Assembly (NCBI GenBank): GCA_018816245.1
Contig: JAHIVW010000002.1
Location: 82,314 to 127,148, forward strand
Reading direction: 5' to 3'
DNA: 44,835 bases
Source of the DNA: Nanobdellota archaeon
GTDB taxonomy: Archaea > Aenigmatarchaeota > Aenigmatarchaeia > QMZP01
Under the pieces are notes generated by a model. That model saw only the letters and a list, made by a program, of their open reading frames with translations. It made no database searches and was not told the DNA's origin. Below, piece after piece: positions 4,650 through 29,066 of the stretch. Each line of letters opens with the position of its first letter. The stretch's first letter is position 1. Position numbers and translations under genes: made by a program.

Positions 4650-7600
4650 TCACTTCTTCTTGTCCCGCTTCCGCGGATCCCATTCATATGCTTGTTGGCT
4701 TGCCCGATGATAATCCTTCTGCTTGGCGTATTTCACTTGCGGTCCGCCAACAACCTGGATTTCCCGTTTCACTGGCGTTGAAGCAACCGGTGTCTCACCC
4801 TTCTTCTTTTTGAACTTCGAGAAGAAGCCACCTTTCTTCTGGCTTGTTGGGTAGGTGAAACCACCGCCTGTTGACGGCATCTTGAACTTGGGATGGCGGC
4901 GGCGTGGCGGCAGGAGCGCATAGACGACGACACCGACAATGATCACCACCGCAAGGATAATGATCCCCCACACCCAGAGATCGATGACAAACGGAATACC
5001 AACTTCAACGCCTGATTTTTCATTGAATGCGTCAAGTTTCTCCTTAATTTGTGTCGTCACGGTCTGGAGCTCGTCGTACTTTTCAGCAGCCAGGGCACCC
5101 TGTCCTTGGCTTACAAGCGTTTTGATTTCATCGATCAGCGCCTGCAGCTCGTCAATCTCTTCCTGGGTTAGCTGGCTGCGCAAGTTGTCCAGAATCGCCT
5201 GAAGTGCATTGGCTTTTGCAGAAAGATCTGAGAATTCATTCTTCAGTGCCAATTTCTTTTCCTCAGTTGGATTGATGATAAGAGTGAAGTTTCCGGTTCC
5301 CGTGACATTCCCATTCTTCGCAGTGAGCGTCACGGTTCGATTCCCAATGGGAGCGGTGATATCTGCCCACAGTGTTACGGTTGTTGTACAGTAGCCGATT
5401 GTCGCTCCTGCGGTGCAGTTCGTATACGTCATATTTCCAAAAATCCCGGTATCGCTGAAGAAGAGGCTGAAATTGAGATCTTCATCATAACCACCCTTGT
5501 TCGAAATCTTCGCCTTGGTAACACCATAATCACTTCCATTTCCGAGGATGGTTACTTCCGTCGGGTCAAAAACAATCTCAAGTCTATGTTTTTTGACACA
5601 TTTATGATTTTCAGCAACTTCATCAGAGTTACAGCTCAGTGCTGTGCAGACATTACTAGAACAATATTGACTCGAGGAACAGTCGCTGTCTGTGGTGCAG
5701 CTTGTCGAACTACCTGAGCCGGTTGTGCTTCCAGAATCATCCGTTGAACTTGAATTGTCGCTTACAGTGACCGCAAATCCTGTTATATTTGCGTATGCTC
5801 GCTTATTCAAAGATTGGACAGCACCATCCGAACAACTTGTACTCGAGCTCACGGTTTGGGCAGTGAGCTTCCAGACAAGATCACAACCTCGCGGAGAATA
5901 TCCTGGAAGGACCACACTGAACTGCGAACCACTCACGACCGCAGTTGCACCAGTTTCATAACAATGACTGGTAACCGCAGCAACGGTTACTGCACAGGAA
6001 CCGATAGCGAAGTTGATTGATGCATTTGTATTTGTTACTCCTTTTGTTCCCGCGATACCATTTGTTCCTGTCCCGTTGACTGCAGTGGATACCGGTCCAA
6101 AATTCTTTACACTGATGTTCACATACACAATTCCAGTTGTCTCACTAATCGACCCAAGAGAAAGACTTCCAGTTGAGTTTAAGGACAGATTCAGCCCGGT
6201 TTCGTTAATGACGAGCTGGGCAATGGAGACGTTTCTATTCGAGCCTGTTCCCGTCAGATTGGTTGCATAATCAATGCCTGATATTACATTTGTTCCGTTG
6301 TATTTCCAGATTGGATACGAGACATTGATATAAATGGAATAGTTACCACCAGCGAGGTTCGCGGGAATGGTTCCATTGATGTGACAAATGTCGCTTGCAC
6401 AAACGACACCTGTAGCAAGATTCACATTTGTTAAATGACTAATATAATTCGTTACATTATTCTCGACGATGTAGATATTCGGGAAGTCTGTTTGATTCAT
6501 ATAACCAGCTGTTGCGGTATTTGAGATGACCGTTCCGTTGACAAGCTGGACTTTCACATCGACAGTGAGGTTTTCCGTTTTGCTTGCATTCGTCATCATA
6601 AATGATGATGCTGTATGGAAGTCGGTTAACGTGACATTCAAGAATGTTGTATAGTTGACATCGATGACAAGATTGGTAACGGCATACGGATGAGATTGAT
6701 TCAATCCGTTGTCACTTGTTGTATTGAAGACGATGGTACCCGTATACGTGCCTGCTGAATTGCTTGTATTGATACTGCTCGCCTGGATGGTAACTACGAG
6801 TGGTTTCTGGGTACTTCCATCGATGGGGCTGGTGTTGGTGGTGACAACCATTGAAATGTTGTTGAGAGCACTATCCTTGATAGCGGTTTGATTTCCATTT
6901 CCAATCGTAAGGTTATATGCTACAGGAATGGTTCCATTGTTGGCCATGGTGAAGTTGAGGATTATTGTTGTGTTAAGCCCGACATTGACAGCCGTCTTGT
7001 TTCGGACGACTGATGTATTTGCGGTTGGCCGGCCGGTATTGGAGTCCACAAACAGGAGTTGTGGCGCCCAGACCGTGAATTCAAGAGGCACGCGAACCTT
7101 CCAGCCGCTGCCGTTGTAATATTCAGCATATCCTTTGTACGTCCCGTTCACGAAGTTTGTTCCGGTCAGGTTGAGGAAGTGGCTGATGTTGAAGCTGGCG
7201 TTGTGACCAGCGCCAGTCGACCCATTTAATGCTGTTCCATTGGTCCAGTTCGAGACGACCGTGATGCCGAATGCTGATCCATACTTCAGCTGCACCTCGG
7301 TTGTTCGGTTACTCAGGCCAAGTCCCAATGGAGATGGAGCACTGGCATTGAAGATGGTGATGTTCCAGATCCCCTCATTCGAAGCATTAATGCCGCCCTT
7401 CCAGCGGATGTATTCCTCCCGTTCCGCATCCGTAGAGTTGGCAATGAGCCACTTGTTGACGGACGTTGCAACGAGGGTGTTGTTCGGATTGCGAAGATGG
7501 ATGGTATAGTTCGAATCTCCCTTCCCGGTTTCCCTGTTCCACCAGGTTCGGACAAGGATCTCAGAGGTGAAGTTGTAGACCTGGACATAGTACGTTTCTG

Positions 7601-9077
7601 ATGTTTCATTGATGCTTGGATAACCAAGCACCTGGTAGATGGAGACACTTTCTTTGAGATTCGTTATGATGTTTTCATCAATTCCTGTGATGTTGATGGT
7701 GTCGTTGTGCGAGTGGCCGGTGTTATTGGCCATAATCACCCCATAGCGGAGGGTTGGGTACCAGTCCGTTTGATTGCTTCCGTTGGTGATGTTTACCGGT
7801 GCGAAGAAGAAATCGACCTGGTAACTTGCACTCGTGTTTCCCACACGGATTTCCCAAAGGTCGTTGAATCGCGGCCACTGCGGAAGCATGAGGATGAGAT
7901 CCTCACTGTTGTTCTCAATAGATTTTCCAACAGTGTCGCCACTAGAATTCACCACCAGGATGTCAAGGTCCTTCGAGAGGTTTGCCCCAGAGAGGCCGCG
8001 GAGCAGGATCCGGACGGAGGAGGCGTTCCTTGTCTCGTTCGTCCAGAAGTAATAGGTGTGGGATCCCTTTGTCGTGCTGTTGGTGCCCCGGACAAATGCG
8101 CTGTTGTTGGCAACGTTGTACGTGTTGTCCTTGCTGATCGGAATGATAACCTCTGCTGTCAGATTGACGTACTCGCTCGTGCTTGTGATGTTGTGGGTCG
8201 TAAAGTTTCCGATGTAGAGACCAGGCGGACAGATCGGATCAATGAAAAGCGTGAAATTGGCTGTGCTTGCCTCCTCAGTATTCATGAACCCGGTCGAGGA
8301 AATTGCCGTAGTATTGCTGAACACATTAAATGATAATAATCCGTTGCTGCTTGACGCATTTGCGAGGCAACGATCATAGTTGCCACTTGTCAAGTTGTCA
8401 TAGGCGTTTGTTCCATAATCACTGGTAGTAAAGTATTGCGGCTGGATGGTGGTTGCACCGGTGGCATTGGAGATTTTCAGTCCGGTCGTGTTGATGGTTG
8501 TTACCATACTCAGAGAAGCATTTGTCCAGTTGAAGACGATGATTTCAGGACCGATTGCGTATTCACCAGTGGTGCTCGTAACACCGATGAGGGTAATTGT
8601 TACGGTACTTTTGTTATCGATGTTGTATGTATTGCTGGCGTTAAACTCATTCACTTTCGTGAAAATGGTAATCGTGTACGTTCCTGATGTATTTGGAAGG
8701 CGTGCATTGAAACCAAAAAATTGCGTGACAGAAGGTCCAATTGTCCTGTTTGTACTGTTATCAGTCCACGTAAGGTTGTTTGAAACGTTATAGAAGATGA
8801 CACTTGTCCCTCCTGTAGAATTGGTGTGGTTGCTCCCTACACTAAAGGACCAGGTACTCGGGAGCTGGATAATCACCTCACTGATGTTCGCTAAGGCGTT
8901 TTGGTTGTGGACACTAATGTTAAATGTGGCGTTCAGGGAATTGACAACATAGGTCGAGCGGGCTGTATATTGGGTGAAGGGACTGGCTTCAGAGAAGAGT
9001 GCTCCAACTGAGAGGGAAAGCACAACGATGACTATGAGTAGCCAGGCACGTCTGTTGAACGGTTTTAGATCCCCCAT
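4650..9077 (-). CDS. Very large sequon-rich membrane-anchored surface protein
   Basis: This 1475-residue protein begins with a basic N-terminus and a hydrophobic signal segment (about residues 10-32). A very long Asn/Thr/Ser-rich ectodomain follows, with dozens of N-x-S/T sequons and beta-sandwich-like repeats resembling CARDB/NEW3-type domains. Next come a Ser/Thr linker, a Cys-rich patch with CTTDSDCSSSQYCSSNVC, another beta-sandwich, and a heptad-rich coiled coil (about 1270-1350). A single membrane helix (about 1363-1389) precedes an 86-residue basic cytoplasmic tail. The layout is that of an S-layer-like or adhesion protein held by its C-terminus; the function is not known. TTTTAAAT at 9121-9128 would start transcription near 9098, leaving a leader of about 20 nt. 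The gene at 23033 has the same architecture. Confidence 0.82.
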   Translation of the reverse strand: MGDLKPFNRRAWLLIVIVVLSLSVGALFSEASPFTQYTARSTYVVNSLNATFNISVHNQNALANISEVIIQLPSTWSFSVGSNHTNSTGGTSVIFYNVSNNLTWTDNSTNRTIGPSVTQFFGFNARLPNTSGTYTITIFTKVNEFNASNTYNIDNKSTVTITLIGVTSTTGEYAIGPEIIVFNWTNASLSMVTTINTTGLKISNATGATTIQPQYFTTSDYGTNAYDNLTSGNYDRCLANASSSNGLLSFNVFSNTTAISSTGFMNTEEASTANFTLFIDPICPPGLYIGNFTTHNITSTSEYVNLTAEVIIPISKDNTYNVANNSAFVRGTNSTTKGSHTYYFWTNETRNASSVRILLRGLSGANLSKDLDILVVNSSGDTVGKSIENNSEDLILMLPQWPRFNDLWEIRVGNTSASYQVDFFFAPVNITNGSNQTDWYPTLRYGVIMANNTGHSHNDTINITGIDENIITNLKESVSIYQVLGYPSINETSETYYVQVYNFTSEILVRTWWNRETGKGDSNYTIHLRNPNNTLVATSVNKWLIANSTDAEREEYIRWKGGINASNEGIWNITIFNASAPSPLGLGLSNRTTEVQLKYGSAFGITVVSNWTNGTALNGSTGAGHNASFNISHFLNLTGTNFVNGTYKGYAEYYNGSGWKVRVPLEFTVWAPQLLFVDSNTGRPTANTSVVRNKTAVNVGLNTTIILNFTMANNGTIPVAYNLTIGNGNQTAIKDSALNNISMVVTTNTSPIDGSTQKPLVVTIQASSINTSNSAGTYTGTIVFNTTSDNGLNQSHPYAVTNLVIDVNYTTFLNVTLTDFHTASSFMMTNASKTENLTVDVKVQLVNGTVISNTATAGYMNQTDFPNIYIVENNVTNYISHLTNVNLATGVVCASDICHINGTIPANLAGGNYSIYINVSYPIWKYNGTNVISGIDYATNLTGTGSNRNVSIAQLVINETGLNLSLNSTGSLSLGSISETTGIVYVNISVKNFGPVSTAVNGTGTNGIAGTKGVTNTNASINFAIGSCAVTVAAVTSHCYETGATAVVSGSQFSVVLPGYSPRGCDLVWKLTAQTVSSSTSCSDGAVQSLNKRAYANITGFAVTVSDNSSSTDDSGSTTGSGSSTSCTTDSDCSSSQYCSSNVCTALSCNSDEVAENHKCVKKHRLEIVFDPTEVTILGNGSDYGVTKAKISNKGGYDEDLNFSLFFSDTGIFGNMTYTNCTAGATIGYCTTTVTLWADITAPIGNRTVTLTAKNGNVTGTGNFTLIINPTEEKKLALKNEFSDLSAKANALQAILDNLRSQLTQEEIDELQALIDEIKTLVSQGQGALAAEKYDELQTVTTQIKEKLDAFNEKSGVEVGIPFVIDLWVWGIIILAVVIIVGVVVYALLPPRRRHPKFKMPSTGGGFTYPTSQKKGGFFSKFKKKKGETPVASTPVKREIQVVGGPQVKYAKQKDYHRASQQAYEWDPRKRDKKK

Positions 9078-9120
9078 TCACGATCACACAGGATAGAACT
9101 CCTTTAGTATGTGGGAGAGG

Positions 9121-9143
9121 TTTTAAATCCCTTGGCATTTAAA
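9121..9143. promoter_or_regulatory. Back-to-back TATA elements for divergent genes
   Basis: TTTTAAAT (9121-9128) is placed to drive the minus-strand surface protein (ATG at 9077). TTTAAA (9138-9143) is centred 26-27 nt before the plus-strand ATG at 9167, giving a leaderless message. The two elements are only about 10 bp apart, so the divergent promoters probably compete or are co-regulated. Confidence 0.6.
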
Positions 9144-9166
9144 GCGCCGCCAGCCAAAGGAGTAGT

Positions 9167-9805
9167 ATGGCCTTCAGCATCTGCGAGCAGCTGCTCGAAT
9201 TCCTGAATGTCGCCAACACGGTCTCCTGTAACGAGTACCCGACTCCCATGGAGAACTACTTCTACCTGATCGCCTTTCCGACGATCGTGATCATTATTTT
9301 CATCTATATCGTGTCCAGTGCCCTGACGACCCGGTTCACCAAGGAGAACACCGCTGGCATGAAAGGGATCCGGCTCCTGATTGCCGGGTCAGCGTTCATG
9401 TTCATCGTGCTCCAGGGATTGTATTCGTTGTTCATTCCCCTGGCCAAGTTTTGGTTCTGGGTGGTGATTGTCATCGGCGGGCTGTGGTTCTTCTTCTGGC
9501 ATCACTTCAAGGGCGAGAGTTCGAGTGGGGGGTACTCGTTTGGAAAAGGGAAATCCCACGGAAAGCGACTGCTGGATACAATGACCGGCGGCCTCGAGCT
9601 GAATCCATTTGAACATGCACACAACAAGCGCATGCTCGGGGAGGATATCAAGCGACTGAAGCTTACGATTAAAGAATTGGAAGAAGCAAGGAAAAATGCC
9701 TCAACAGAGGATGAGAAGGGAAGGTTTGTTGAGAAGATTGCACAATTGAGAATTCAATTGAAAACCGCGGAAGCATTGCATAGGAAAGGAAAGGAGGCGG
9801 CATAA
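9167..9805 (+). CDS. Small membrane protein with C-terminal coiled coil
   Basis: I do not recognise this 212-residue protein. It has three hydrophobic segments, at about residues 30-50, 66-86 and 91-112, then a Gly/Ser/Lys-rich linker, and a helical C-terminus (about 145-210) with heptad-like charged repeats that should form a cytoplasmic coiled coil. The leaderless start is supported by TTTAAA at 9138-9143. It overlaps the next gene by one base (TAATG), with an SD inside its 3' end, so the pair forms an operon. Position beside the giant surface protein suggests an envelope role, which is inference only. Confidence 0.75.
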   Translation: MAFSICEQLLEFLNVANTVSCNEYPTPMENYFYLIAFPTIVIIIFIYIVSSALTTRFTKENTAGMKGIRLLIAGSAFMFIVLQGLYSLFIPLAKFWFWVVIVIGGLWFFFWHHFKGESSSGGYSFGKGKSHGKRLLDTMTGGLELNPFEHAHNKRMLGEDIKRLKLTIKELEEARKNASTEDEKGRFVEKIAQLRIQLKTAEALHRKGKEAA

Positions 9806-10260
9806 TGGCTCTTCTTATCCCCGAGTTCGTGCTCCCGTTCCTGTTCACGTTCGCGGTTGCGTACGGTGCGCTGCAATTGTCAACCTTGTTCGGCAAGCGC
9901 GTGAACGTGCTGATCGGGGCGGTCCTCGGACTGTTTGCCATCAGCAACGCGTGGGTAATCGATACCATCAACGAGATCCTCCCGTTCGCCGCGATCTTCT
10001 TTGTTGTAGTGTTCTTCATCGGCTTCCTGGTCAAGGCCGTCTCGTCTGGAAAGCAAGGAGAGAAGCCGGATTTCACCCTCATCGTTGTTCTGCTCGTCTT
10101 CGTGCTCCTGCTCCTGTCAGCACAAGGCGGAGAGTTCATTGAGAAGTACGTGAAGCTGCCCGGGTTCGGCACTGAGAATCTCTTCTTCTTGGTTGGGGGG
10201 ATCGTGCTGCTGTTGATTGTCTTCCTCGCATACAAGGCCTCCACGGGCGAGGGAAAGTAA
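9805..10260 (+). CDS. Polytopic membrane protein of unknown function
   Basis: This 151-residue protein is almost entirely hydrophobic, with four predicted helices (about residues 5-24, 33-49 extending to 52-72, 88-106 and 124-144) and short charged loops. An SD sequence AAAGGAGG lies at 9790-9797, seven bases before the ATG, and the ATG overlaps the previous stop. It is therefore translated from the same message as the coiled-coil membrane protein upstream, and the two may form a complex. I do not recognise the family. Confidence 0.72.
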   Translation: MALLIPEFVLPFLFTFAVAYGALQLSTLFGKRVNVLIGAVLGLFAISNAWVIDTINEILPFAAIFFVVVFFIGFLVKAVSSGKQGEKPDFTLIVVLLVFVLLLLSAQGGEFIEKYVKLPGFGTENLFFLVGGIVLLLIVFLAYKASTGEGK

Positions 10261-10293
10261 CCTTTAAAAAACCGATCACCAAAGACGGGTGCT

Positions 10294-10560
10294 ATGAAAC
10301 TGACTGTTCTCGAAAAAGACAAGAACCATATTGCTGTCCAGTTCTCCGGGGAGACGCACACCTTGCTGAACCTGCTCGTTGAGAATGCCTGGAAGGCAGG
10401 GGCAACGCAGGCCGCGACCGTGATGGAACATCCGTATCTTGAGGAGCCCAAGCTCGTGATCCACGGACCAAATCCTCAGAAGATTCTGACTGATGCTGCG
10501 ACCATGGCGGTTGCCGAGGCCAAGGAATTTCAGAGCGTGTTCAAGAAAGCAGTGAAGTGA
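10294..10560 (+). CDS. rpo11: DNA-directed RNA polymerase subunit Rpo11 (RpoL)
   Basis: This 88-residue protein matches archaeal subunit L (Rpo11), the partner of Rpo3 in the polymerase assembly platform. The typical N-terminal strand (MKLTVLEKDKNHIAVQFSGE), the helix-forming 'HTLLNLL' block and the 'MEHPYLEEPKLVIHG' block are all visible, and the length is normal. TTTAAA at 10263-10268 is centred 28 nt before the ATG, so the message is leaderless. It is convergent with the accessory block downstream. Its 3' end is followed by a T-rich run (10561-10574), typical of archaeal termination, and then by a perfect palindrome. Confidence 0.93.
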   Translation: MKLTVLEKDKNHIAVQFSGETHTLLNLLVENAWKAGATQAATVMEHPYLEEPKLVIHGPNPQKILTDAATMAVAEAKEFQSVFKKAVK

Positions 10561-10575
10561 TTCTTTTTTGTTTTA

Positions 10576-10590
10576 TATAACACTGTTATA
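10576..10590. promoter_or_regulatory. Operator-like palindrome, copy 1
   Basis: TATAACACTGTTATA is a perfect 7-1-7 inverted repeat. It matches the palindromes at 12797-12813, 29050-29066 and 33971-33987. Here it lies between convergent genes: after the rpo11 T-rich run and immediately after the TAG (10591-10593) that ends the last open frame of the minus-strand block. No start codon lies at the 41-43 bp spacing seen for the other copies, so its role here is unclear. Confidence 0.5.
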
Positions 10591-10879
10591 CTAAGGAATC
10601 AGAAAGCCACGGTCGTTGAAGACAGCGACTTTCTGGTTTGTGTCCTGTTGGACTATGGCTCCTCCATCTCCTGGGTCCATTCCTGGGATTCCCACGTAGT
10701 CCAAGTCACCATCCCAGAAACCATCTGCGATACTCCAATTCAGCCTCGATGATGTTGTAGTGAAGCTCTTGTACGAGCCACTCTACAAAGAAGGAATAAT
10801 CTACTTGAGAACAAGAACAATCTCGAAACATTCCTTGAAGTTCATCCAGATCAAAAGGGTTGATCCCCGGAAGTCTCAT
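10591..10879 (-). pseudogene. Small unknown gene, apparently split by a frameshift
   Basis: From the ATG at 10879 one frame gives 57 residues (MRLPGINPFDLDELQGM...) and stops at 10706. From about 10760 a second frame reads on as protein-like sequence, including IADGFWDGDLDYVGIPG and QKVAVFNDRGFLIP, to a TAG at 10591-10593. That second frame has no good start of its own: no ATG until 10680, and only a GTG near 10695. Joined by a one-base shift near 10720-10745, they would make a protein of about 95 residues. Whether this is a sequencing error, a real mutation or programmed shifting cannot be told. It is last in the operon with the two small beta-grasp-like genes upstream. Confidence 0.45.
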
Positions 10880-10881
10880 TT

Positions 10882-11097
10882 CTAAACTTTCCCAGCAGTG
10901 AGAACAACACAGAAAATACAGCTGCCGATGCAGCGGCTGTTCGGTTGCAGGATCCCGCCGACAAATGCGTTCCAGCAGCCAGGGACCCTGCACTTCCGCT
11001 TGAGGTCGCCGTACAGGTACACCTCACCTAACGGAACATATTCCGTGCGGTGCACCGGGCCTTCAATCTCGACTCGGATCAAGACATCCTGGATCAT
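10882..11097 (-). CDS. Small beta-grasp-like protein E
   Basis: This is a 71-residue protein with the order strand (VLIRVEI), turn (EGPVHR), strand (TEYVPLGE), a short helical stretch around DLKRKC, then strands near AFVGGILQ and CVVLTAG. This is the beta-beta-alpha-beta-beta pattern of ubiquitin/ThiS-like folds and resembles its four small relatives in this block, although the C-terminal part here is the most divergent and contains five Cys. Its ATG overlaps the stop of the gene before it (ATGA), with GAGG five bases upstream. The fold assignment is by pattern only; no known family member is recognised and no C-terminal Gly-Gly is present. Confidence 0.5.
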   Translation of the reverse strand: MIQDVLIRVEIEGPVHRTEYVPLGEVYLYGDLKRKCRVPGCWNAFVGGILQPNSRCIGSCIFCVVLTAGKV

Positions 11098-11306
11098 GGT
11101 ATCCTCATTTCAACGATTGTTGTCCCGCGCGGAACAGGGTCATTATCGTACACGCAGCGACCGTCAATGAAGCCTTTGAGAGAGGCCGGAGCGTTGCAAA
11201 TCCTCCGGACATCTCCCATAAGCATGTTCGGTCTCCGGCGAACCGTGTGCGTCTCGCGGACAGTCTTCCCTGCTCCAAGAACATTCACTATGATTTGTTC
11301 TTGCAT
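11094..11306 (-). CDS. Small beta-grasp-like protein D
   Basis: This 70-residue protein starts with a strand (IIVNVLGAG), a second strand (THTVRRRPN), a helix (LMGDVRRICNAP), then strand FIDGRCVYDND and the ending VPRGTTIVEMRIP. The last part looks like the 'G-D-x-V-x-h' turn and strand of MoaD/ThiS/ubiquitin-type folds. The start at 11306 overlaps the stop of the zinc-finger gene by one base (TGATG), with GGGAGGG just upstream, so it is translationally coupled. It is one of five similar mini-proteins in this region. No C-terminal di-glycine is present, so classical conjugation by this tail is unlikely. Confidence 0.55.
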   Translation of the reverse strand: MQEQIIVNVLGAGKTVRETHTVRRRPNMLMGDVRRICNAPASLKGFIDGRCVYDNDPVPRGTTIVEMRIP

Positions 11307-11710
11307 CAGTCCCTCCCAACAGTTGAAAGACCTTCTTGTGATTTTCGATACATTTCGACAAAAGGACGACAAAAACGACAGTACGTCGCATGGCGTCGCG
11401 TGGCTTCATCGCCGGCATCGATCTGGGAAATCAGACCCATTGGGCAAAAATACCGGCTGCTGAATCGCTTCCCTAACCCGGATAAAAACCATCCGACGCT
11501 CCGACCTTCCCCTCCTGATTCCATTGCCCGAATCGTCTCGTCAAGCGCCGTGAAGAGGCGATCAGTACACGATTCGCAGCACAGTCCCAGATGCCGGTCA
11601 ACAGCAGGCGAGACCGGTTCCCCAGAAACATACTTTCTGACATCCTCGTCGGAGAGATGACGATGCAGGCGCCACCGTAACCTTACCCATGCCAATAATT
11701 TCGAAAACAC
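11306..11710 (-). CDS. Double Cys/His zinc-finger protein of anti-sigma type
   Basis: This 134-residue protein has the segment HLSDEDVRKYVSGEPVSPAV followed by HLGLCCESCTDRL. This is the zf-HC2 arrangement (H-x3-C-x2-C) found at the N-terminus of bacterial anti-sigma factors. A second H-x3-C-x2-C (RHATYCRFC) lies near residues 108-118. There is no membrane helix, so it is probably a soluble zinc protein. The start is a GTG at 11710 with a strong SD (AAGGAGGTGA) directly upstream; the longer frame from 11755 ignores that SD. It heads a tightly coupled group with the small beta-grasp-like genes. A sigma partner is not expected in an archaeon, so its target is unknown. Confidence 0.62.
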   Translation of the reverse strand: MFSKLLAWVRLRWRLHRHLSDEDVRKYVSGEPVSPAVDRHLGLCCESCTDRLFTALDETIRAMESGGEGRSVGWFLSGLGKRFSSRYFCPMGLISQIDAGDEATRRHATYCRFCRPFVEMYRKSQEGLSTVGRD

Positions 11711-11882
11711 GTTCACCTCCTTCCCAAGACAGGGAAAGACATTGTTTGAAAGCAAAAAACCGCACCCAACTCAGCTCCCGCTACCACGAACGTGCTTCAT
11801 TGAAACGTCGTGCGGACGTGGAAACGACGAGGTGATGGGATGAAAGGATAATACAAGATTTTCAATATGAACAATAAATACC
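11711..11882 (-). promoter_or_regulatory. 172-nt non-coding leader before the zinc-finger gene group
   Basis: No coding potential is seen here. Reading on the minus strand there is an AT-rich start with TATA-like TATTTATT (11872-11879), then a possible stem CGTCGT...ACGACG, a small CACG/CGTG hairpin, a run of six T, and the strong SD before the GTG at 11710. It could be an independent promoter with a leader of about 140 nt, or an intergenic part of a dph2 transcript. Confidence 0.4.
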
Positions 11883-12764
11883 TCACAGCTTGTCGATGTC
11901 GTCCGGGTTCAGGATCGGTTTCTTGAACAGTGCCGTGTCCTCGTTCAGCCGCGGGCACATGGTGTTGACGAGCGCGTCCAGCTTCAAGCCCGCGATCTTA
12001 TCCGGCGTTGCCTGGTCGAACACCAGCACCCAAGCTTTCTTTTCCTTTGCTTCAAGCTCCTTCTTGATGGCGAACGCGCGCGCGCTCCGCTGCCCGGGCT
12101 TGGTCGTCACCAGAATCCCGAAATTCGTTGCGTCCTGCGCCTTGGCAATCGATGCCCAGCGTATTTTTTCTTGTTTTGTTTTCTGCGGTGTCAGATCTTC
12201 CAGCGTGTTCCGTTCCACATCAAGGAAGAACACCGGCTGGTCAACGGCCTTGGCAAGGCCCAGCGGGTGGAACATTCCTGAGCCAATGAACACATAGCAG
12301 TCAACAGCAGTCTTTGGCGGCCGGCAGCCGAGCATGGGCTCCAACACCGTGACCGTCTTGCCGTGTTGTTCAAGGAAGACCGCGGCTGGTTCAAGAGCAG
12401 CGACGAACTGCACTGAGGACGTAAGTCCGATGGTGCGGTAGGGTTTGAGGGCGTCAAGATGCTTCTCCAAGGAGAGCTTCTTATCAATATAATAGGGCTC
12501 GTAGATCACCGGCAGTTTTTCTTGCACACCGAAGGCCGTGTGGCCGATGTGGAGAAGCACGTCGCAGCCGAGGTCGAGCGCGTCTTGGTCGCGGAGGTCG
12601 CAGGCACCGAAGTTCGGTTCGCAGGCAATCAGGACCTCGTAGCCTTCTTTGGTGAGCTCGTCGGCAATCGCCTGGCAGCGGGTCTTGAGCCCCTCGGGGA
12701 ACTGGAGCAGGATACGTTTTGCGTGGCTTTCTTTGAGGCGCTTGCGCGTGGTTTCGGAGAGCAT
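11883..12764 (-). CDS. dph2: Diphthamide biosynthesis enzyme Dph2
   Basis: This 293-residue protein is archaeal Dph2. It is the radical enzyme that uses a 4Fe-4S cluster and S-adenosylmethionine to place a 3-amino-3-carboxypropyl group on the conserved histidine of elongation factor 2. The three cluster cysteines are visible: Cys55 (FGACDLRD), Cys147 (MLGCRPP) and Cys270 (VNTMCPR), with spacing like the family. The ATG at 12764 was chosen because a TATA element (CTTATAA at 12785-12791) lies about 25 nt upstream; the longer frame to 12815 would run through the promoter and operator. The operator palindrome is centred 41 bp before the start. It lies between two accessory gene groups on the same strand. 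Confidence 0.93.
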   Translation of the reverse strand: MLSETTRKRLKESHAKRILLQFPEGLKTRCQAIADELTKEGYEVLIACEPNFGACDLRDQDALDLGCDVLLHIGHTAFGVQEKLPVIYEPYYIDKKLSLEKHLDALKPYRTIGLTSSVQFVAALEPAAVFLEQHGKTVTVLEPMLGCRPPKTAVDCYVFIGSGMFHPLGLAKAVDQPVFFLDVERNTLEDLTPQKTKQEKIRWASIAKAQDATNFGILVTTKPGQRSARAFAIKKELEAKEKKAWVLVFDQATPDKIAGLKLDALVNTMCPRLNEDTALFKKPILNPDDIDKL

Positions 12765-12796
12765 GACTGGTGTAGCGGGCGGGGACTTATAAAAGT

Positions 12797-12813
12797 GTAT
12801 CACAGTGTTATAC
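12797..12813. promoter_or_regulatory. Operator palindrome, copy 2, upstream of dph2
   Basis: GTATCACAGTGTTATAC is a near-perfect inverted repeat around G12805 with one mismatched pair; three further bases on each side also pair (12795-12815). It lies just upstream of the dph2 TATA element and its centre is 41 bp from the ATG. In archaea a protein bound here would touch the BRE/TFB region, fitting either activation or exclusion of TFB. Confidence 0.7.
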
Positions 12814-12821
12814 ACCCTAAG

Positions 12822-12855
12822 CAGTTCGGCACGGTCGCGGGACAGTACCGAACTG
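12822..12855 (-). terminator. Stem-loop after the 12861-13076 gene
   Basis: Perfect 8-bp arms CAGTTCGG (12822-12829) and CCGAACTG (12848-12855), extendable to 10 of 11 pairs, lie five bases after the stop codon of the upstream minus-strand gene. They end six bases before the operator region of dph2. A terminator or insulating hairpin is likely, although no U-run follows. Confidence 0.5.
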
Positions 12856-12860
12856 GTGAG

Positions 12861-13076
12861 TCAGAAGGATTCGAACTCGACGACGTCACCCTCTCGGAAG
12901 TGGCAGCCGCCTCTGAGTGGGTTGCCATTTTCGTCAACGGCCCGCGAAAGCCGTCTGATGGGAAGCCGATCACGGAACGTGTCAGGATCCACGATCTCAC
13001 CGACGGAGACCCTTTTCTTGTGCCTCCTTCCGTCCTCGTCTTCCCATTTCACGGTGATGTGCGTTCGATATGACAC
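12861..13076 (-). CDS. Small beta-grasp-like protein C
   Basis: This 71-residue protein reads strand (HITVKWEDEDG), strand (RHKKRVSVGE), helix (DPDTFRDRLPIRRL), strand (AVDENGNPL) and the terminal REGDVVEFESF. The 'GD-V-x-F' ending is the conserved turn and last strand of ubiquitin/ThiS/TGS-type folds. The start is a GTG at 13076 with a strong SD (AAAGGAGG) seven bases away; it overlaps the previous gene by 28 nt. It is third in the run A-B-C after the transporter gene. No di-glycine tail is present and the function is unknown. The fold call is by pattern and should be modelled. Confidence 0.6.
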   Translation of the reverse strand: MSYRTHITVKWEDEDGRRHKKRVSVGEIVDPDTFRDRLPIRRLSRAVDENGNPLRGGCHFREGDVVEFESF

Positions 13077-13321
13077 TGTATGTCCTCCTTTCCATTAGTC
13101 GAAACAACCTTGAAGATAACCATGTCCCCTTCGAAGAGGGGTTCGTCTTCTTCAAGAAGGATACCGTAGAAAAACGCCTTCGCTTGTTTTGGAATGCTTG
13201 GGAACATCACCCGAAGGCGTGCCGGTGTTAACTCCTCGTTGGTGAGGGTGACAACTTCATGCCTCTTCGTCCTCGGCGGTCCCCGCTCCTTCCAGATGAC
13301 CGTAGCGCTTCCTTCGATCAT
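13049..13321 (-). CDS. Small beta-grasp-like protein B
   Basis: This 90-residue protein shows strand (ATVIWKERG), strand (KRHEVVTL), helix (TPARLRVMFPSIPK), strand (FYGILLEEDE) and LFEGDMVIFKVV, then a short extra tail. It shares with protein A a 'x-MFPxIP' helix end and with A and C the 'GD-x-x-x-F' last strand, so the three look like diverged duplicates. The start at 13321 has only a weak SD (AGGTG), unlike its neighbours. Its 3' end overlaps gene C by 28 nt, so translation is coupled. Confidence 0.6.
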   Translation of the reverse strand: MIEGSATVIWKERGPPRTKRHEVVTLTNEELTPARLRVMFPSIPKQAKAFFYGILLEEDEPLFEGDMVIFKVVSTNGKEDIQCHIERTSP

Positions 13322-13336
13322 TGTGACACCTATTCC

Positions 13337-13558
13337 TTAAACGAAGTCGAACAGATCACCATGCTTGACGACATAATTGGTAGGATACGGCCAACCATCC
13401 TCAGCAAGAGGCCAGTGGTTCCTTGGAATATCCGGAAACATGTTCAGAAGATCTTCGATTACCGTAGTACTCGGAACATTACACTCTCGTCGTTGGGGTC
13501 CCTTGCTGTCAGTCCAGCGCACGAGGATATGAACTGTTTTTGATTCTGGTGTAGCCAT
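13337..13558 (-). CDS. Small beta-grasp-like protein A
   Basis: This 73-residue protein reads strand (VHILVRWTDSKG), strand (RRECNVPS), helix (VIEDLLNMFPDIPRN), strand (LAEDGWPYP) and VKHGDLFDFV at the very C-terminus. The order and the final 'GD-L-x-D-F' turn match beta-grasp domains of the ubiquitin/MoaD kind. The ATG at 13558 was preferred to 13576 because GAGGAGG (13563-13569) sits just upstream of it. The gene follows the transporter by 10 nt and is followed by B and C, so all four probably share one message. Confidence 0.6.
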   Translation of the reverse strand: MATPESKTVHILVRWTDSKGPQRRECNVPSTTVIEDLLNMFPDIPRNHWPLAEDGWPYPTNYVVKHGDLFDFV

Positions 13559-13568
13559 CTCAACCTCC

Positions 13569-14462
13569 TCACACAAGTTGCATCACAAGCCCGGACAACA
13601 TCAAGATCACCCCGATCGTCTTCCAACCAAGGTTGACCATGACCTCGTCGCGGTACCATTGAATGTTCCGTGCTGCGATCATGCCGGCCACCACGAACGC
13701 GAGCACCACGCCGCAATTCACGACTGTGTTCACCAGTGCCGTGGGCCGGGAACACAGAAACGCCTGGATCATAAACAGGATTCCGAAGCCGTTCAAGAAC
13801 TCCGAGGTCCCGATCAGCACCTTCCGCTTGAACGGAAGCCGCACAACCGGGAGGAACACGTGCCACGCGAACAGGGGAAACAGGAAGACCAGCACCGGCA
13901 CCAGCATCACCCGGCTCCAGGCGAAGATCTCCGGTGTCGTGAACCGGCAGCCTTTCAGCCACCGGATCTGGCACGCGTTCAACCCGAAGAACAAGGCATT
14001 GAACAGCATCAGCACGACCACCTGCCGCTGCGCCCGCCGCTTTCCTTGAGCGAAGGCAACGGTCGCCGCGATCATGAAGCCGCACGTCACGGCATCGCCG
14101 AGGGTCAGGGTCTCGCCGAGCCAGAACCATCCGATGAGCAGCGTCGGGATGAACGAGATCGGGAAGAGCGGGCCGATGACTGTCAAGTCCGACACCCGCA
14201 AGGCATAGAAGACAAACAGGACGTACGTCACGTACGTTACCCCGACACCCAGCAGGATGCAGAGTTCCTTGACCGGCGGACGCTCGAATCCAAAAAGCTT
14301 GATGCAAAGCGCACCAAGCACAGCCTGGACAACGATCAGGACATGGATCATCTGGATGGGAGAGAGCACGTTCCCTGTCCCGTTCCGAAGCAGCTTGGTG
14401 CTGCGAATGTAGTTCGCCGCCCCGAAACAAAAGGAGGCGACGAGAATATCACTAAGCCACAT
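13569..14462 (-). CDS. DMT/EamA-type membrane transporter
   Basis: This 297-residue protein has ten predicted membrane helices arranged as two halves. Features of the drug/metabolite transporter superfamily are visible, including 'VTYVLFVFYALRVSDLTVIGPLFPI' style helices (positions about 75-102) and the 'GWFWLGETLTLGD' block that ends helix 4, typical of EamA domains. The substrate cannot be predicted. The start ATG at 14462 has a strong SD, AAAGGAGG (14468-14475). Directly before that SD is a terminator-like hairpin with a run of six U, so expression may be set by attenuation. It leads the operon with the three beta-grasp-like genes. Confidence 0.8.
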   Translation of the reverse strand: MWLSDILVASFCFGAANYIRSTKLLRNGTGNVLSPIQMIHVLIVVQAVLGALCIKLFGFERPPVKELCILLGVGVTYVTYVLFVFYALRVSDLTVIGPLFPISFIPTLLIGWFWLGETLTLGDAVTCGFMIAATVAFAQGKRRAQRQVVVLMLFNALFFGLNACQIRWLKGCRFTTPEIFAWSRVMLVPVLVFLFPLFAWHVFLPVVRLPFKRKVLIGTSEFLNGFGILFMIQAFLCSRPTALVNTVVNCGVVLAFVVAGMIAARNIQWYRDEVMVNLGWKTIGVILMLSGLVMQLV

Positions 14463-14478
14463 GGCCGCCTCCTTTCAG

Positions 14479-14554
14479 AAAAAAGGGAGGCAGCGACGGC
14501 CCGGGAAGGAGACAGGGAATGGCGATTTCCCTGTCTTTGTACCGCCGCTGCCTC
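14479..14554 (-). promoter_or_regulatory. Nested hairpin with U-run just before the transporter SD (possible attenuator)
   Basis: On the minus strand an outer stem GAGGCAGCG (14554-14546) pairs with CGCTGCCTC (14495-14487), with a further CGG/CCG pairing after one mismatch. It encloses an inner perfect 9-bp stem, GACAGGGAA with TTCCCTGTC (14535-14527 and 14519-14511). Six U (14484-14479) follow the outer stem at once, then the SD of the transporter four bases later. This is the form of an intrinsic terminator or riboswitch expression platform. Confidence 0.55.
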
Positions 14555-14571
14555 TTGGTTATCAGAAAAGT

Positions 14572-14641
14572 GTGTGACCGTGACGAATGCTTTCCTTGGG
14601 GGAGGAGGAAGGAAGAGTACTCACACCCACCACGGTCACAC
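14572..14641 (-). repeat. 11-bp inverted repeat, second stem in the transporter leader
   Basis: GTGTGACCGTG (14572-14582) and CACGGTCACAC (14631-14641) are perfect inverted copies 48 bp apart. They lie just upstream (in the minus-strand sense) of the terminator-like hairpin. The 48-nt loop is purine/pyrimidine biased. It may be a sensor stem, or the terminator of the preceding gene pair. The 14642-14711 stretch contains only AT-rich TATA-like sequence and no gene. Confidence 0.45.
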
Positions 14642-14711
14642 GTCTCACCTATATGCTCAAAAATATCCTGTACGACGCCGCTTTAGAGAGTTTCAGTCGG
14701 AACGCGGACTG

Positions 14712-15266
14712 TTACTCTTCGCTGAGGTTTCTCCCGGTCATTGTTGAGATAAGCCCTGCGAAGACCTCCTCCAACACATCGCACAGGGAAGAGAACCGTT
14801 GAACATCCGGCGGCGCAAACTTGCGTGCAACCGCAAGAACGAGCTGCTCCGGATCAAGCTCCGGCCTCCGTGCCGTGTTTATGATCTCGTCGAAGTTCGC
14901 GAGGAACAACGCCCGCTCCTCGAGCGTTGCAGGCGGCAACCCTGCGCGCGCGAGTTCGATGTCGAGCGCCTGTTCGTAGCCGGAACGGGACAGCTTGCAC
15001 CCGTTCTGCAGGGCCTTCGGAAGCTGGGCGAGCAACGCTTCGATAATGCCTTTCTTCATGGCAGCGCATCGTTCCTCGCCAAGATGCTCCCAAACACTCT
15101 TCTTCAGCGCCGTGGCAAACTCGTCTTTGAAGACGATCCCCTGGACAGCAACCAAGGTTCGCAAGGTCCGTTCGTAATGTCCAGGAAGGTGAGGATCGTC
15201 ATTCACTACATCCTCTTGCGCCTGCTTGAGGACACCGTCGATCAGCATTTGTACCCGGTCATCCAT
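14712..15266 (-). CDS. Unknown helical protein H
   Basis: I do not recognise this 184-residue, largely alpha-helical, soluble, acidic protein. It contains a central pair of helices around KKSVWEHLGEERCAAMKKGI and a C-terminal helix LCDVLEEVFAGLISTM. No signal peptide, membrane helix or metal motif is visible. The ATG at 15266 was chosen over the GTG at 15269 because AGGAGGC (15271-15277) sits at proper spacing. The SD overlaps the end of the preceding 65-residue gene, so the two are coupled. Confidence 0.6.
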   Translation of the reverse strand: MDDRVQMLIDGVLKQAQEDVVNDDPHLPGHYERTLRTLVAVQGIVFKDEFATALKKSVWEHLGEERCAAMKKGIIEALLAQLPKALQNGCKLSRSGYEQALDIELARAGLPPATLEERALFLANFDEIINTARRPELDPEQLVLAVARKFAPPDVQRFSSLCDVLEEVFAGLISTMTGRNLSEE

Positions 15267-15275
15267 CACAGCCTC

Positions 15276-15473
15276 CTAGCCCTTCGCTTCCCGGAGGAGC
15301 GCAAGGAACTCCTGCTCATCCTCCGCAGTGACCGATAGTCCGTGCAACTTCAGCAGAACTTCTCTGAAGATCTGGAGGTACACCTCTTCCCGTTGCGGCG
15401 TGAGGTTCCGGTCGTCGATCTTCACGAGATTGAGAAACGTTTGAGCGACCTTACGCTTCTTGTCGTGCACCAT
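15276..15473 (-). CDS. Unknown 65-residue helical protein G
   Basis: A short, charged, helical protein (MVHDKKRKVAQTFLNLVKID...). The ATG at 15473 is preceded by AAGGAGGG, and this decides the start against the longer upstream frame. Two helices are predicted, about residues 4-18 and 28-62, with the second rich in Glu/Leu (EEVYLQIFREVLLKL). It opens the minus-strand accessory block and is followed within 10 nt by gene H. No family is recognised. Confidence 0.55.
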   Translation of the reverse strand: MVHDKKRKVAQTFLNLVKIDDRNLTPQREEVYLQIFREVLLKLHGLSVTAEDEQEFLALLREAKG

Positions 15474-15618
15474 ACCCTCCTTAGAAACGACGTCTTTCGA
15501 CGTCTTGTGAGAAAATCCACCCGCGCTCCCGCTCCCTGATGCGAACAATCAACTGACTGTTCATTCCTGCTTCAGGTCAAGCCCAAAGGACTTGGAACGC
15601 CAACGTGGGTGGTGTGAG
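15474..15618 (-). promoter_or_regulatory. Structured leader before genes G and H
   Basis: If transcription starts about 26 nt downstream of the TATA-like CTATAAATAG (minus strand, 15641-15650), a leader of roughly 145 nt results, unlike the leaderless neighbours. A 6-bp hairpin GACGTC-GAAA-GACGTC (15489-15504) lies just before the SD, and a longer-range CCACCC/GGGTGG pairing is possible. No gene is seen in it. Confidence 0.4.
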
Positions 15619-15636
15619 AAATCACTGTTTGGGAGT

Positions 15637-15652
15637 GAACTATTTATAGTTC
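15637..15652. promoter_or_regulatory. Palindromic TATA element between block gene G and HMG-CoA reductase
   Basis: GAACTATTTATAGTTC has perfect 7-bp arms around a 2-bp centre and includes TATAAATA on the minus strand, a near-consensus archaeal TATA box directed at gene G. It is also about 20 bp upstream of the TTTAAA (15671-15676) used by the divergent HMG-CoA reductase gene. A regulator binding the palindrome would block the minus-strand promoter. Confidence 0.5.
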
Positions 15653-15697
15653 TTCGGCCTTGCATAGGCATTTAAACCTCAACTCGAGGCGAAACGT

Positions 15698-16969
15698 ATG
15701 GAACTGTATCGCAGGCTCGTCAAGGGGGACGTCAAGCCCCACGAACTCGAAATGATCATCTGGGAGGAGCAGTACCAGAAAGATCCTGATCATTGGGTCA
15801 AGGCACACGAAGAAGCAGCACTCCTCCGGCTGAAATACTACGAACAACACACCAAGAAGTCCCTGGACACAATCGGCCGGCATTTCATTTCCACAGCCAA
15901 GAACGGTACAGTTGGGATCGAACAGGCAATCGGCGGCGCAGTCATTCCCCTCGGGGTTGCCGGTCCCCTCAGAGTGAACGGCACCGAGGCACGGGGCGAT
16001 TTCTTCCTGCCAGCAGCCACCAACGAGGCAGCATTGATTGCCGGTCTCACTCGCGGCTGCAAGACCCTCAACGCCGCAAACGGTGTTGAGGTCGTGATCA
16101 CACGCGATCACATGGCACGCGCACCGGTGGTTGAAGCGAACACCATTGAAACAGCGCAGAAGATCGCCGCAGAGATCAACGAGCACAGCGAGTTGTACGA
16201 TGCCATGCGCGAGGCAGCAGAAGCAGACGCAACAGTATCGAAACTCAAGGACATTGTCCCGTTCCAGATGGGGCGGCGACTCTACATCCGCTTTACCTTT
16301 ACCACCGGGGACGCCATGGGTATGAACTCAGTGACGAAGTACGCAGGCAATGGCGTGCGCGCCTTACTCAAGCAACATCCACTTCTCAAGCTGGTCAGCT
16401 TAACCGGCAACATGTGCACGGACAAGAAGGCGTCGCATGTGAATGTTCTGCTTGGTCGAGGAAAATCTGTAGAAACCGAGGTTGTGTTGCCCGCGCGACT
16501 CGTCAAGAAAATGTTCGGCGTCGAGGCAGCGGACATTGCCAACCTGAACCGCATCAAGAACTTGGAAGGAAGTGCATTGTCCGGAACGATCTCGGGGTTC
16601 AATGCAAATGCAGCGAACACCGTTGCTGCCCTGTTCCTGGCAACAGGACAAGACGCAGCACAAATCGTGGAATCAAGTTCCTGTTTCACCCATGCAGAAC
16701 TGAACAAGGACACCTTGTTATTCGGGGTGTCCATGCCGTCACTCGAAGTCGCCACCGTGGGCGGGGGTACTGGCTTTGGCACGGCGAAAGAGGCCTTAAG
16801 CCTCCTCGGTTGTGCAGGTCCGGGCTCAAAACCAGGCGCGAATGCGCGCAAGCTTGCCGAGATCATCGCTGCTGCGGTGACCGCACAAGAACTGAATCTG
16901 CTCGCTGCAGAAGCGCACGGGTATGAGCTTGCGGATTCACATATCCGACTCGCACGCGGGAAAAACTAG
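15698..16969 (+). CDS. hmgA: 3-hydroxy-3-methylglutaryl-CoA reductase, class I
   Basis: This 423-residue enzyme reduces HMG-CoA to mevalonate with NADPH, the committed step towards archaeal isoprenoid lipids. The visible blocks are the substrate-binding LTRGCKTLNAANGVEV region, the cofactor motif TGDAMGMNSVTKYAG, the NANAANTVAALFLATGQD stretch with the catalytic aspartate, and the C-terminal TVGGGTGFGTAKEALSLLG. The length and class I layout are normal; the catalytic His expected near the C-terminus is probably in 'EAHGYELADSH'. TTTAAA at 15671-15676 is centred 24-25 nt before the ATG, giving a leaderless message. It is divergent from the accessory block. Confidence 0.93.
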   Translation: MELYRRLVKGDVKPHELEMIIWEEQYQKDPDHWVKAHEEAALLRLKYYEQHTKKSLDTIGRHFISTAKNGTVGIEQAIGGAVIPLGVAGPLRVNGTEARGDFFLPAATNEAALIAGLTRGCKTLNAANGVEVVITRDHMARAPVVEANTIETAQKIAAEINEHSELYDAMREAAEADATVSKLKDIVPFQMGRRLYIRFTFTTGDAMGMNSVTKYAGNGVRALLKQHPLLKLVSLTGNMCTDKKASHVNVLLGRGKSVETEVVLPARLVKKMFGVEAADIANLNRIKNLEGSALSGTISGFNANAANTVAALFLATGQDAAQIVESSSCFTHAELNKDTLLFGVSMPSLEVATVGGGTGFGTAKEALSLLGCAGPGSKPGANARKLAEIIAAAVTAQELNLLAAEAHGYELADSHIRLARGKN

Positions 16970-29001: not shown

Positions 29002-29045
29002 AAAACAGGGAGGGGGTGTCAGAAACGATAACCCCTTTCTGTTTT
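29002..29045 (+). terminator. Stem-loop terminator after the five-gene operon
   Basis: Arms AAAACAGGGAGGGGGT (29002-29017) and AACCCCTTTCTGTTTT (29030-29045) pair over about 15 positions with a 12-nt loop, ending in UUUU. It stops just five bases before the operator region of the next promoter, insulating the two units. Confidence 0.65.
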
Positions 29046-29049
29046 GAAT

Positions 29050-29066
29050 GTATAACAGTGTCATAA
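29050..29066. promoter_or_regulatory. Operator palindrome, copy 3, upstream of the agmatinase-dys operon
   Basis: GTATAACAGTGTCATAA is an inverted repeat around G29058 with two mismatched pairs, matching the other copies. A TATA-like CATATTAATA follows at about 29070-29079, and the ATG at 29101 is 43 bp from the centre. The geometry is the same as for dph2 and the PQQ operon. Confidence 0.65.

Follow-up and report, generated by a model that had tools for sequence, protein, structure and literature searches.

The locus considered here raises the question of what role could be served by five short, mutually diverged proteins encoded close together in a small archaeal genome. The genes, which we call U1 to U5, lie in a 44,835-nucleotide stretch (the window; contig JAHIVW010000002.1, positions 82,314 to 127,148, of assembly GCA_018816245.1) from a Nanobdellota archaeon. 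The contig that carries the window is 127 kb long, and the genome comprises 886 kb over 6 contigs with a completeness of about 88%. An earlier interpretation made from the letters alone, hereafter the sequence-only reading, had regarded the five products as divergent beta-grasp (ubiquitin-like) proteins that do not belong to a known conjugation system. The models and alignments described below suggest that at least one of the five, and probably all five, have a ubiquitin-like fold. We tentatively favor the interpretation that U1–U5 form a small lineage-specific family of solo, non-conjugated ubiquitin-like beta-grasp adaptors or subunits.

Is the predicted fold that of ubiquitin? U1 (13337–13558, minus strand, transcribed from 13558 to 13337) encodes 73 residues ending in HGDLFDFV and was modeled by AlphaFold2 from a five-row alignment, with a predicted local distance difference test score (pLDDT) of 88.7. 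The top 50 Foldseek matches of this model had E-values of 1.1e-4 to 3e-3, a probability of 1.00 and query template-modeling (TM) scores of about 0.52–0.69, and the leading PDB matches are ubiquitin-like: an ESX-3 translocon chain (EccD3; first, E 1.1e-4), SUMO, ISG15 and Caldiarchaeum ubiquitin. The model firmly predicts U1 to be a ubiquitin-like beta-grasp protein. U2 (13049–13321, minus strand, 90 residues, with a C-terminal extension) gave a model with a pLDDT of 70.9 and the order E-E-H-E-E; its structural matches are weak (best E 0.28) and mostly ubiquitin-like, with FAT10 and Elongin B among them and MoaD and TtuB lower down, and U2 is likely ubiquitin-like on the basis of this model. 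U3 (12861–13076, minus strand, 71 residues, GTG start) is likely ubiquitin-like as well, through its homology to U1. Searches of the PDB by sequence gave nothing informative. The sequence-only reading had assigned the beta-grasp fold to all five and had proposed structure prediction with fold comparison as the check; the assignment was borne out with significant matches for U1, with a less confident model for U2 and by homology for U3, and for U4 and U5 we infer it.

How closely are the five proteins related? U1 and U3 are linked by a shuffle z of 7.3 and a blastp E-value of 4e-4, and U4 and U5 by a shuffle z of 6.8. The pairs U1–U2 (z 3.4, p 0.008) and U1–U4 (z 3.1, p 0.01) gave lower values, and all other pairs are weak by shuffling (p 0.03 to 0.9). 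U4 (11094–11306, minus strand, 70 residues counted from an internal ATG) has, apart from its homology to U5, this weak link to U1; its paralogue U5 (10882–11097, minus strand) has 71 residues and five cysteines. In leave-one-out profiles U1, U4 and U5 rank right behind the training members and ahead of all 1,180 background open reading frames (ORFs), with background statistics drawn from the window and the retrieved loci. The final GD-x-x-x-F strand that was thought to be present in most of the proteins is found in three of the five (GDLFDF in U1, GDMVIF in U2, GDVVEF in U3) and is missing in U4 and U5. Judged from their sequences, two groups are established, U1–U3 and U4–U5, and common descent of all five, while unproven, is likely.

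That the five small genes are real is confirmed. All were found at the coordinates given in the sequence-only reading, on the minus strand, with 70–90 residues each. In order of transcription, the region reads EamA, U1, U2, U3, a hairpin, dph2, ZF (a gene for a zinc-finger protein), U4, U5 and a damaged-looking ORF. The genes are arranged in two operons, EamA-U1-U2-U3 and ZF-U4-U5, one on each side of dph2 (diphthamide synthesis; 11883–12815, minus strand, Pfam E 4e-55), and the placement of one group after a transporter and of the other after a zinc-finger protein is correct along the minus strand. Spacing inside each group consists of gaps of 10–15 nucleotides or of overlaps; U3 and U2 overlap by 28 bp, ZF and U4 are start-coupled via TGATG, and U4 and U5 via ATGA. 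A Shine-Dalgarno-like sequence precedes each of the five genes, for example GAGGAGGTTGAGATG before U1 and GGAGGACATACAGTG, with a GGAGG site, before U3; ZF has a GTG start preceded by GGAGGTGAAC. When scored against the codon use of the core genes of the window, the gene's own frame is the best of six for all five. The codon scores themselves are 0.01–0.17 for U1–U5 versus 0.19–0.25 for the core genes listed, and −0.09 for ZF; such values are compatible with genes that are foreign or evolve fast. Native-like scores were obtained for EamA and for the two ORFs that follow it (14712–15269 and 15276–15548).

Could these proteins be conjugated? The last residues are FDFV in U1, ERTSP in U2, EFESF in U3, EMRIP in U4 and TAGKV in U5, so none of the five translations ends in Gly-Gly. 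U1, U3 and U4 stop at the last strand without any tail, and hence they have no tail that could enter an E1. No E1, JAB or ThiS gene adjoins the cluster, no match to ThiS (PF02597) above the cut-off was found among U1–U5 or in their own genome, and no Prok-JAB match above the cut-off was found in that genome; neither JAB (PF01398) nor E2 was looked for across all of it. Because of this and of the incompleteness of the genome, these absences are provisional. The statement that this is not a known conjugation system is supported by the C-termini and by the adjoining genes.

Searches for homologues located the family in one genome only. The profile finds the five genes and no further place in its own genome; in the phylum (profile A1, 156 genomes, 155 of them others) nothing was found at E 0.01 outside that genome, and in the family (profile A1, 24 genomes) only short chance matches at E 0.02 or worse. 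As many genomes of the phylum are incomplete, absence is not proof genome by genome. Matches of U2 in 60 relatives are due to chance (E 0.017 or worse), and two of these loci that were inspected carry unrelated genes. Pattern scans of genome contigs (U1, ZF) and of viral contigs (A2, ZF, U2, U4, U3), which reach close relatives only, gave no match. A Xanthomonas phage match by tblastn (E 0.01) was rejected, as it overlaps two annotated genes and its extended frame is unlike U1, and plasmid matches by tblastn at E 2 were also rejected. U1–U5 have no PADLOC match and no Pfam or NCBIfam match of the YukD/EsaB/EccD kind. Similar clusters in other genomes, for which the sequence-only reading had suggested profile searches, were not found.

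The history of the locus was examined on the EamA-U1-U2-U3 side only, by comparison of dph2 loci. Five relatives from four genera (L028, L030, L032, L041, L044) have dph2 and the gene for HMG-CoA reductase as divergent neighbors with small gaps, and here the interval between them is 2.9 kb and holds U3, U2, U1, EamA and two ORFs. In the remaining relatives with a dph2 match, either the contig stops or the HMG-CoA reductase gene does not adjoin dph2. The simpler reading, though not the sole one, is that the EamA-U1-U2-U3 block was inserted in this lineage. Linkage to a tRNA was rejected, the only tRNAs of the window being at 38.8 and 43.9 kb, as were integron cassettes: no attC site (RYYYAAC..GTTRRRY) occurs in 9000–16500 on either strand, and the hairpins are of a different form.

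Each operon ends in a hairpin of 14 pairs. One lies directly 3' of the U3 stop (12822–12855, minus strand; RNA fold −21.4 kcal/mol, z −6.2) and is where the first operon probably ends, and the other (10600–10635, minus strand), of the same geometry, closes the ZF-U4-U5 operon on its 3' side. Common to both are 11 pairs, one U-C mismatch, GUC/GAC and a loop of 4 or 6. The common form, noticed after the fact, mildly supports a joint history of the two blocks. Nine nucleotides past each of these hairpins lies a copy of the 15-bp palindrome TATAACANTGTTATA. Within the window its copies are at 10576–10590, 12798–12812 and 29051–29065. Each is preceded, at a distance of 5–9 nucleotides, by a hairpin whose arms are CAG..CTG and whose tip is TGTC-loop-GA(C/T); these hairpins are at 10600–10635 and 12822–12855 (both minus strand) and at 29002–29045 (plus strand). 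About 48 sites with at most 2 mismatches occur genome-wide, versus none for the reversed control, and a cluster-specific site is thereby ruled out. Judged by their flanks, many copies seem to lie between genes, close to TATA-like boxes or close to hairpins at 3' ends, and the palindrome looks like a putative site of a global regulator or chromatin protein.

Among the neighboring genes, ZF (11306–11713, minus strand) encodes 135 residues with two H/C clusters recognized from its sequence, of which the second, read by eye, is RRHATYCRFC (H-x3-C-x2-C); both resemble zinc-binding anti-sigma (ZAS) modules in spacing. A Pfam search of ZF relaxed to E 10 gave no match, NCBIfam and PADLOC gave none either, its best PHROG match was only E 0.007, and the genome-contig and viral-contig scans showed no relative of it. 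The transporter gene EamA (13569–14462, minus strand, Pfam E 3.6e-7) is separated from U1 by 10 nucleotides. The ORF 3' of U5 (about 10591–10879, minus strand), MRLPGINPFDLDELQG..., ends early, and the +1 frame carries on plausibly (ADGFWDGDLDYVGIPGMDPGDGG...); it may be a broken gene, an assembly error or a frameshift. The products encoded in the window include RNA polymerase subunit L, Dph2, deoxyhypusine synthase and SecD/F, which mark the host as archaeal, and the genome size is suggestive of a DPANN-type lineage. The window also encodes, at 4650–9077 (minus strand), a Ser/Thr/Asn-rich, secreted-looking protein of 1475 residues with a C-terminal membrane segment, which is probably a surface protein.

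If U1–U5 are solo adaptors or subunits, the exposed sheet of each protein would provide a protein-binding surface, as in YukD/EsaB, TmoB and Elongin B, and by this analogy their most likely role would be non-covalent binding. Because translation is coupled, ZF would be the natural partner of U4 and U5, which would probably bind ZF or its complex. U1–U3 would be produced together with the EamA transporter, and duplication followed by strong divergence would have left a separate partner to each copy. A more specific proposal is that several tail-less ubiquitin-like proteins, without sequence kinship to described ubiquitin-like families, form a lineage-specific module in this reduced-genome archaeon, grouped around a double-zinc protein as non-covalent adaptors that can replace one another; we consider it unlikely. 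A number of points weigh against the adaptor interpretation. Profile–profile comparison (hhalign) fails to join the U1–U3 group with the U4–U5 group, the leave-one-out profiles fail for U2 and U3, and the beta-grasp fold of U4 and U5 is suggested only by a pattern of likely strands and the weak sequence link to U1–U3. An E1-like gene does exist in the genome, the EamA adjacency may be accidental, and the phages, plasmids and family libraries searched gave no homologue of U1–U5. The adaptor role itself, drawn by analogy, is a weak claim here.

Some of the same observations would suit a split of the five proteins into two small-protein families around dph2, in which only U1–U3 are ubiquitin-like and U4/U5 are an unrelated pair of similar strand order. 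The negative profile–profile comparison agrees with it, the U1–U3 profile does not retrieve U4 or U5, and the GD motif is missing in that pair; however, the U1–U4 shuffle value, the leave-one-out ranks of U4 and U5 above all background, a strand-helix-strand pattern that is alike by eye and the common geometry of the hairpins ending both operons argue for kinship, and we regard the split as rather unlikely, though deserving of serious attention. To a similar degree we doubt that the five are conflict proteins, that is, fast-diverging inhibitors or immunity-type proteins directed against a protein of a virus, toxin or partner cell and arrayed because their targets vary. Small tandem orphan ORFs for which the rest of the phylum's genomes yielded no homologue, codon use that is atypical relative to core genes (ZF most of all) and the probable insertion between dph2 and the HMG-CoA reductase gene relative to the five relatives would be expected of such proteins, but their neighbors have no PADLOC, PHROG or toxin-like match of meaningful score, and the viral contigs and phages gave nothing.

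Two further explanations appear quite improbable. A distant E1 might use the proteins as cryptic modifiers or sulfur carriers, perhaps once the C-terminus is trimmed. The sole E1-like gene above the cut-off encodes a ThiF/MoeB-like protein of about 260 residues with a CxxC motif (contig C4 of the same genome, about 387421–388197; L022:4419–5198, minus strand); in favor of this explanation, it has no recognized ThiS/MoaD partner in the genome, and only one of 23 relatives, G001, has a match to it. Yet the gene is on a separate contig, where aEF-2 and further core genes surround it, G001 shows no U1–U5 match, no JAB match was found, Gly-Gly is absent from all five termini, and in U1, U3 and U4 there is nothing past the last strand for trimming to expose. 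The chance that the ORFs are decaying or not expressed seems just as slight: codon scores under those of core genes, the negative score of ZF and the apparently frame-broken ORF 3' of U5 are set against the Shine-Dalgarno sites, the coupled starts, the own-frame signal of all five and the well-folded U1 model.

How does the favored interpretation, a family of solo non-conjugated adaptors or subunits, compare with known systems? TmoB and Elongin B are stand-alone beta-grasp proteins that act through non-covalent binding, and the known cases of solo, non-conjugated ubiquitin-like proteins are single ones. U1–U5 would resemble these two in being solo, and Elongin B is a weak structural match of U2. 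If the interpretation is true, a sub-megabase archaeal genome would hold as many as five diverged paralogues, none of them found in the relatives searched. Outside eukaryotes, the ubiquitin fold would then have expanded independently as a scaffold for binding, and the set would test what this fold does without conjugation. With ThiS, MoaD, SAMP and Urm1 they share size, the strand-strand-helix-strand layout and, in three of five, the final GD-x-x-x-F strand, but they differ in having no terminal Gly-Gly, no adjoining E1 and no match to the ThiS model above the cut-off. The predicted ubiquitin-like fold is also what they have in common with bacterial E1-E2-JAB operons, whereas no E1, E2 or JAB adjoins them and PADLOC does not recognize them. 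YukD has the ubiquitin fold and was reported not to be conjugated (PMC5845737), and prokaryotic ubiquitin-related families without a terminal glycine have been described (PMC1779556). Like YukD, EsaB and EccD of type VII secretion, U1–U5 would combine a ubiquitin fold with the lack of a conjugatable tail, and the EccD3-bearing ESX-3 chain is the first Foldseek match of U1; unlike them, they are found in an archaeal host, in five diverged copies and with no match at the sequence level, and no type VII secretion gene (FtsK-like ATPase, WXG100) was found among the window genes scanned. By analogy, YukD/EsaB would be the closest counterpart in mode of use, which does not imply membership of that family. 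The ubiquitin fold and its non-conjugated use are already known; what is new is the diversified orphan set.

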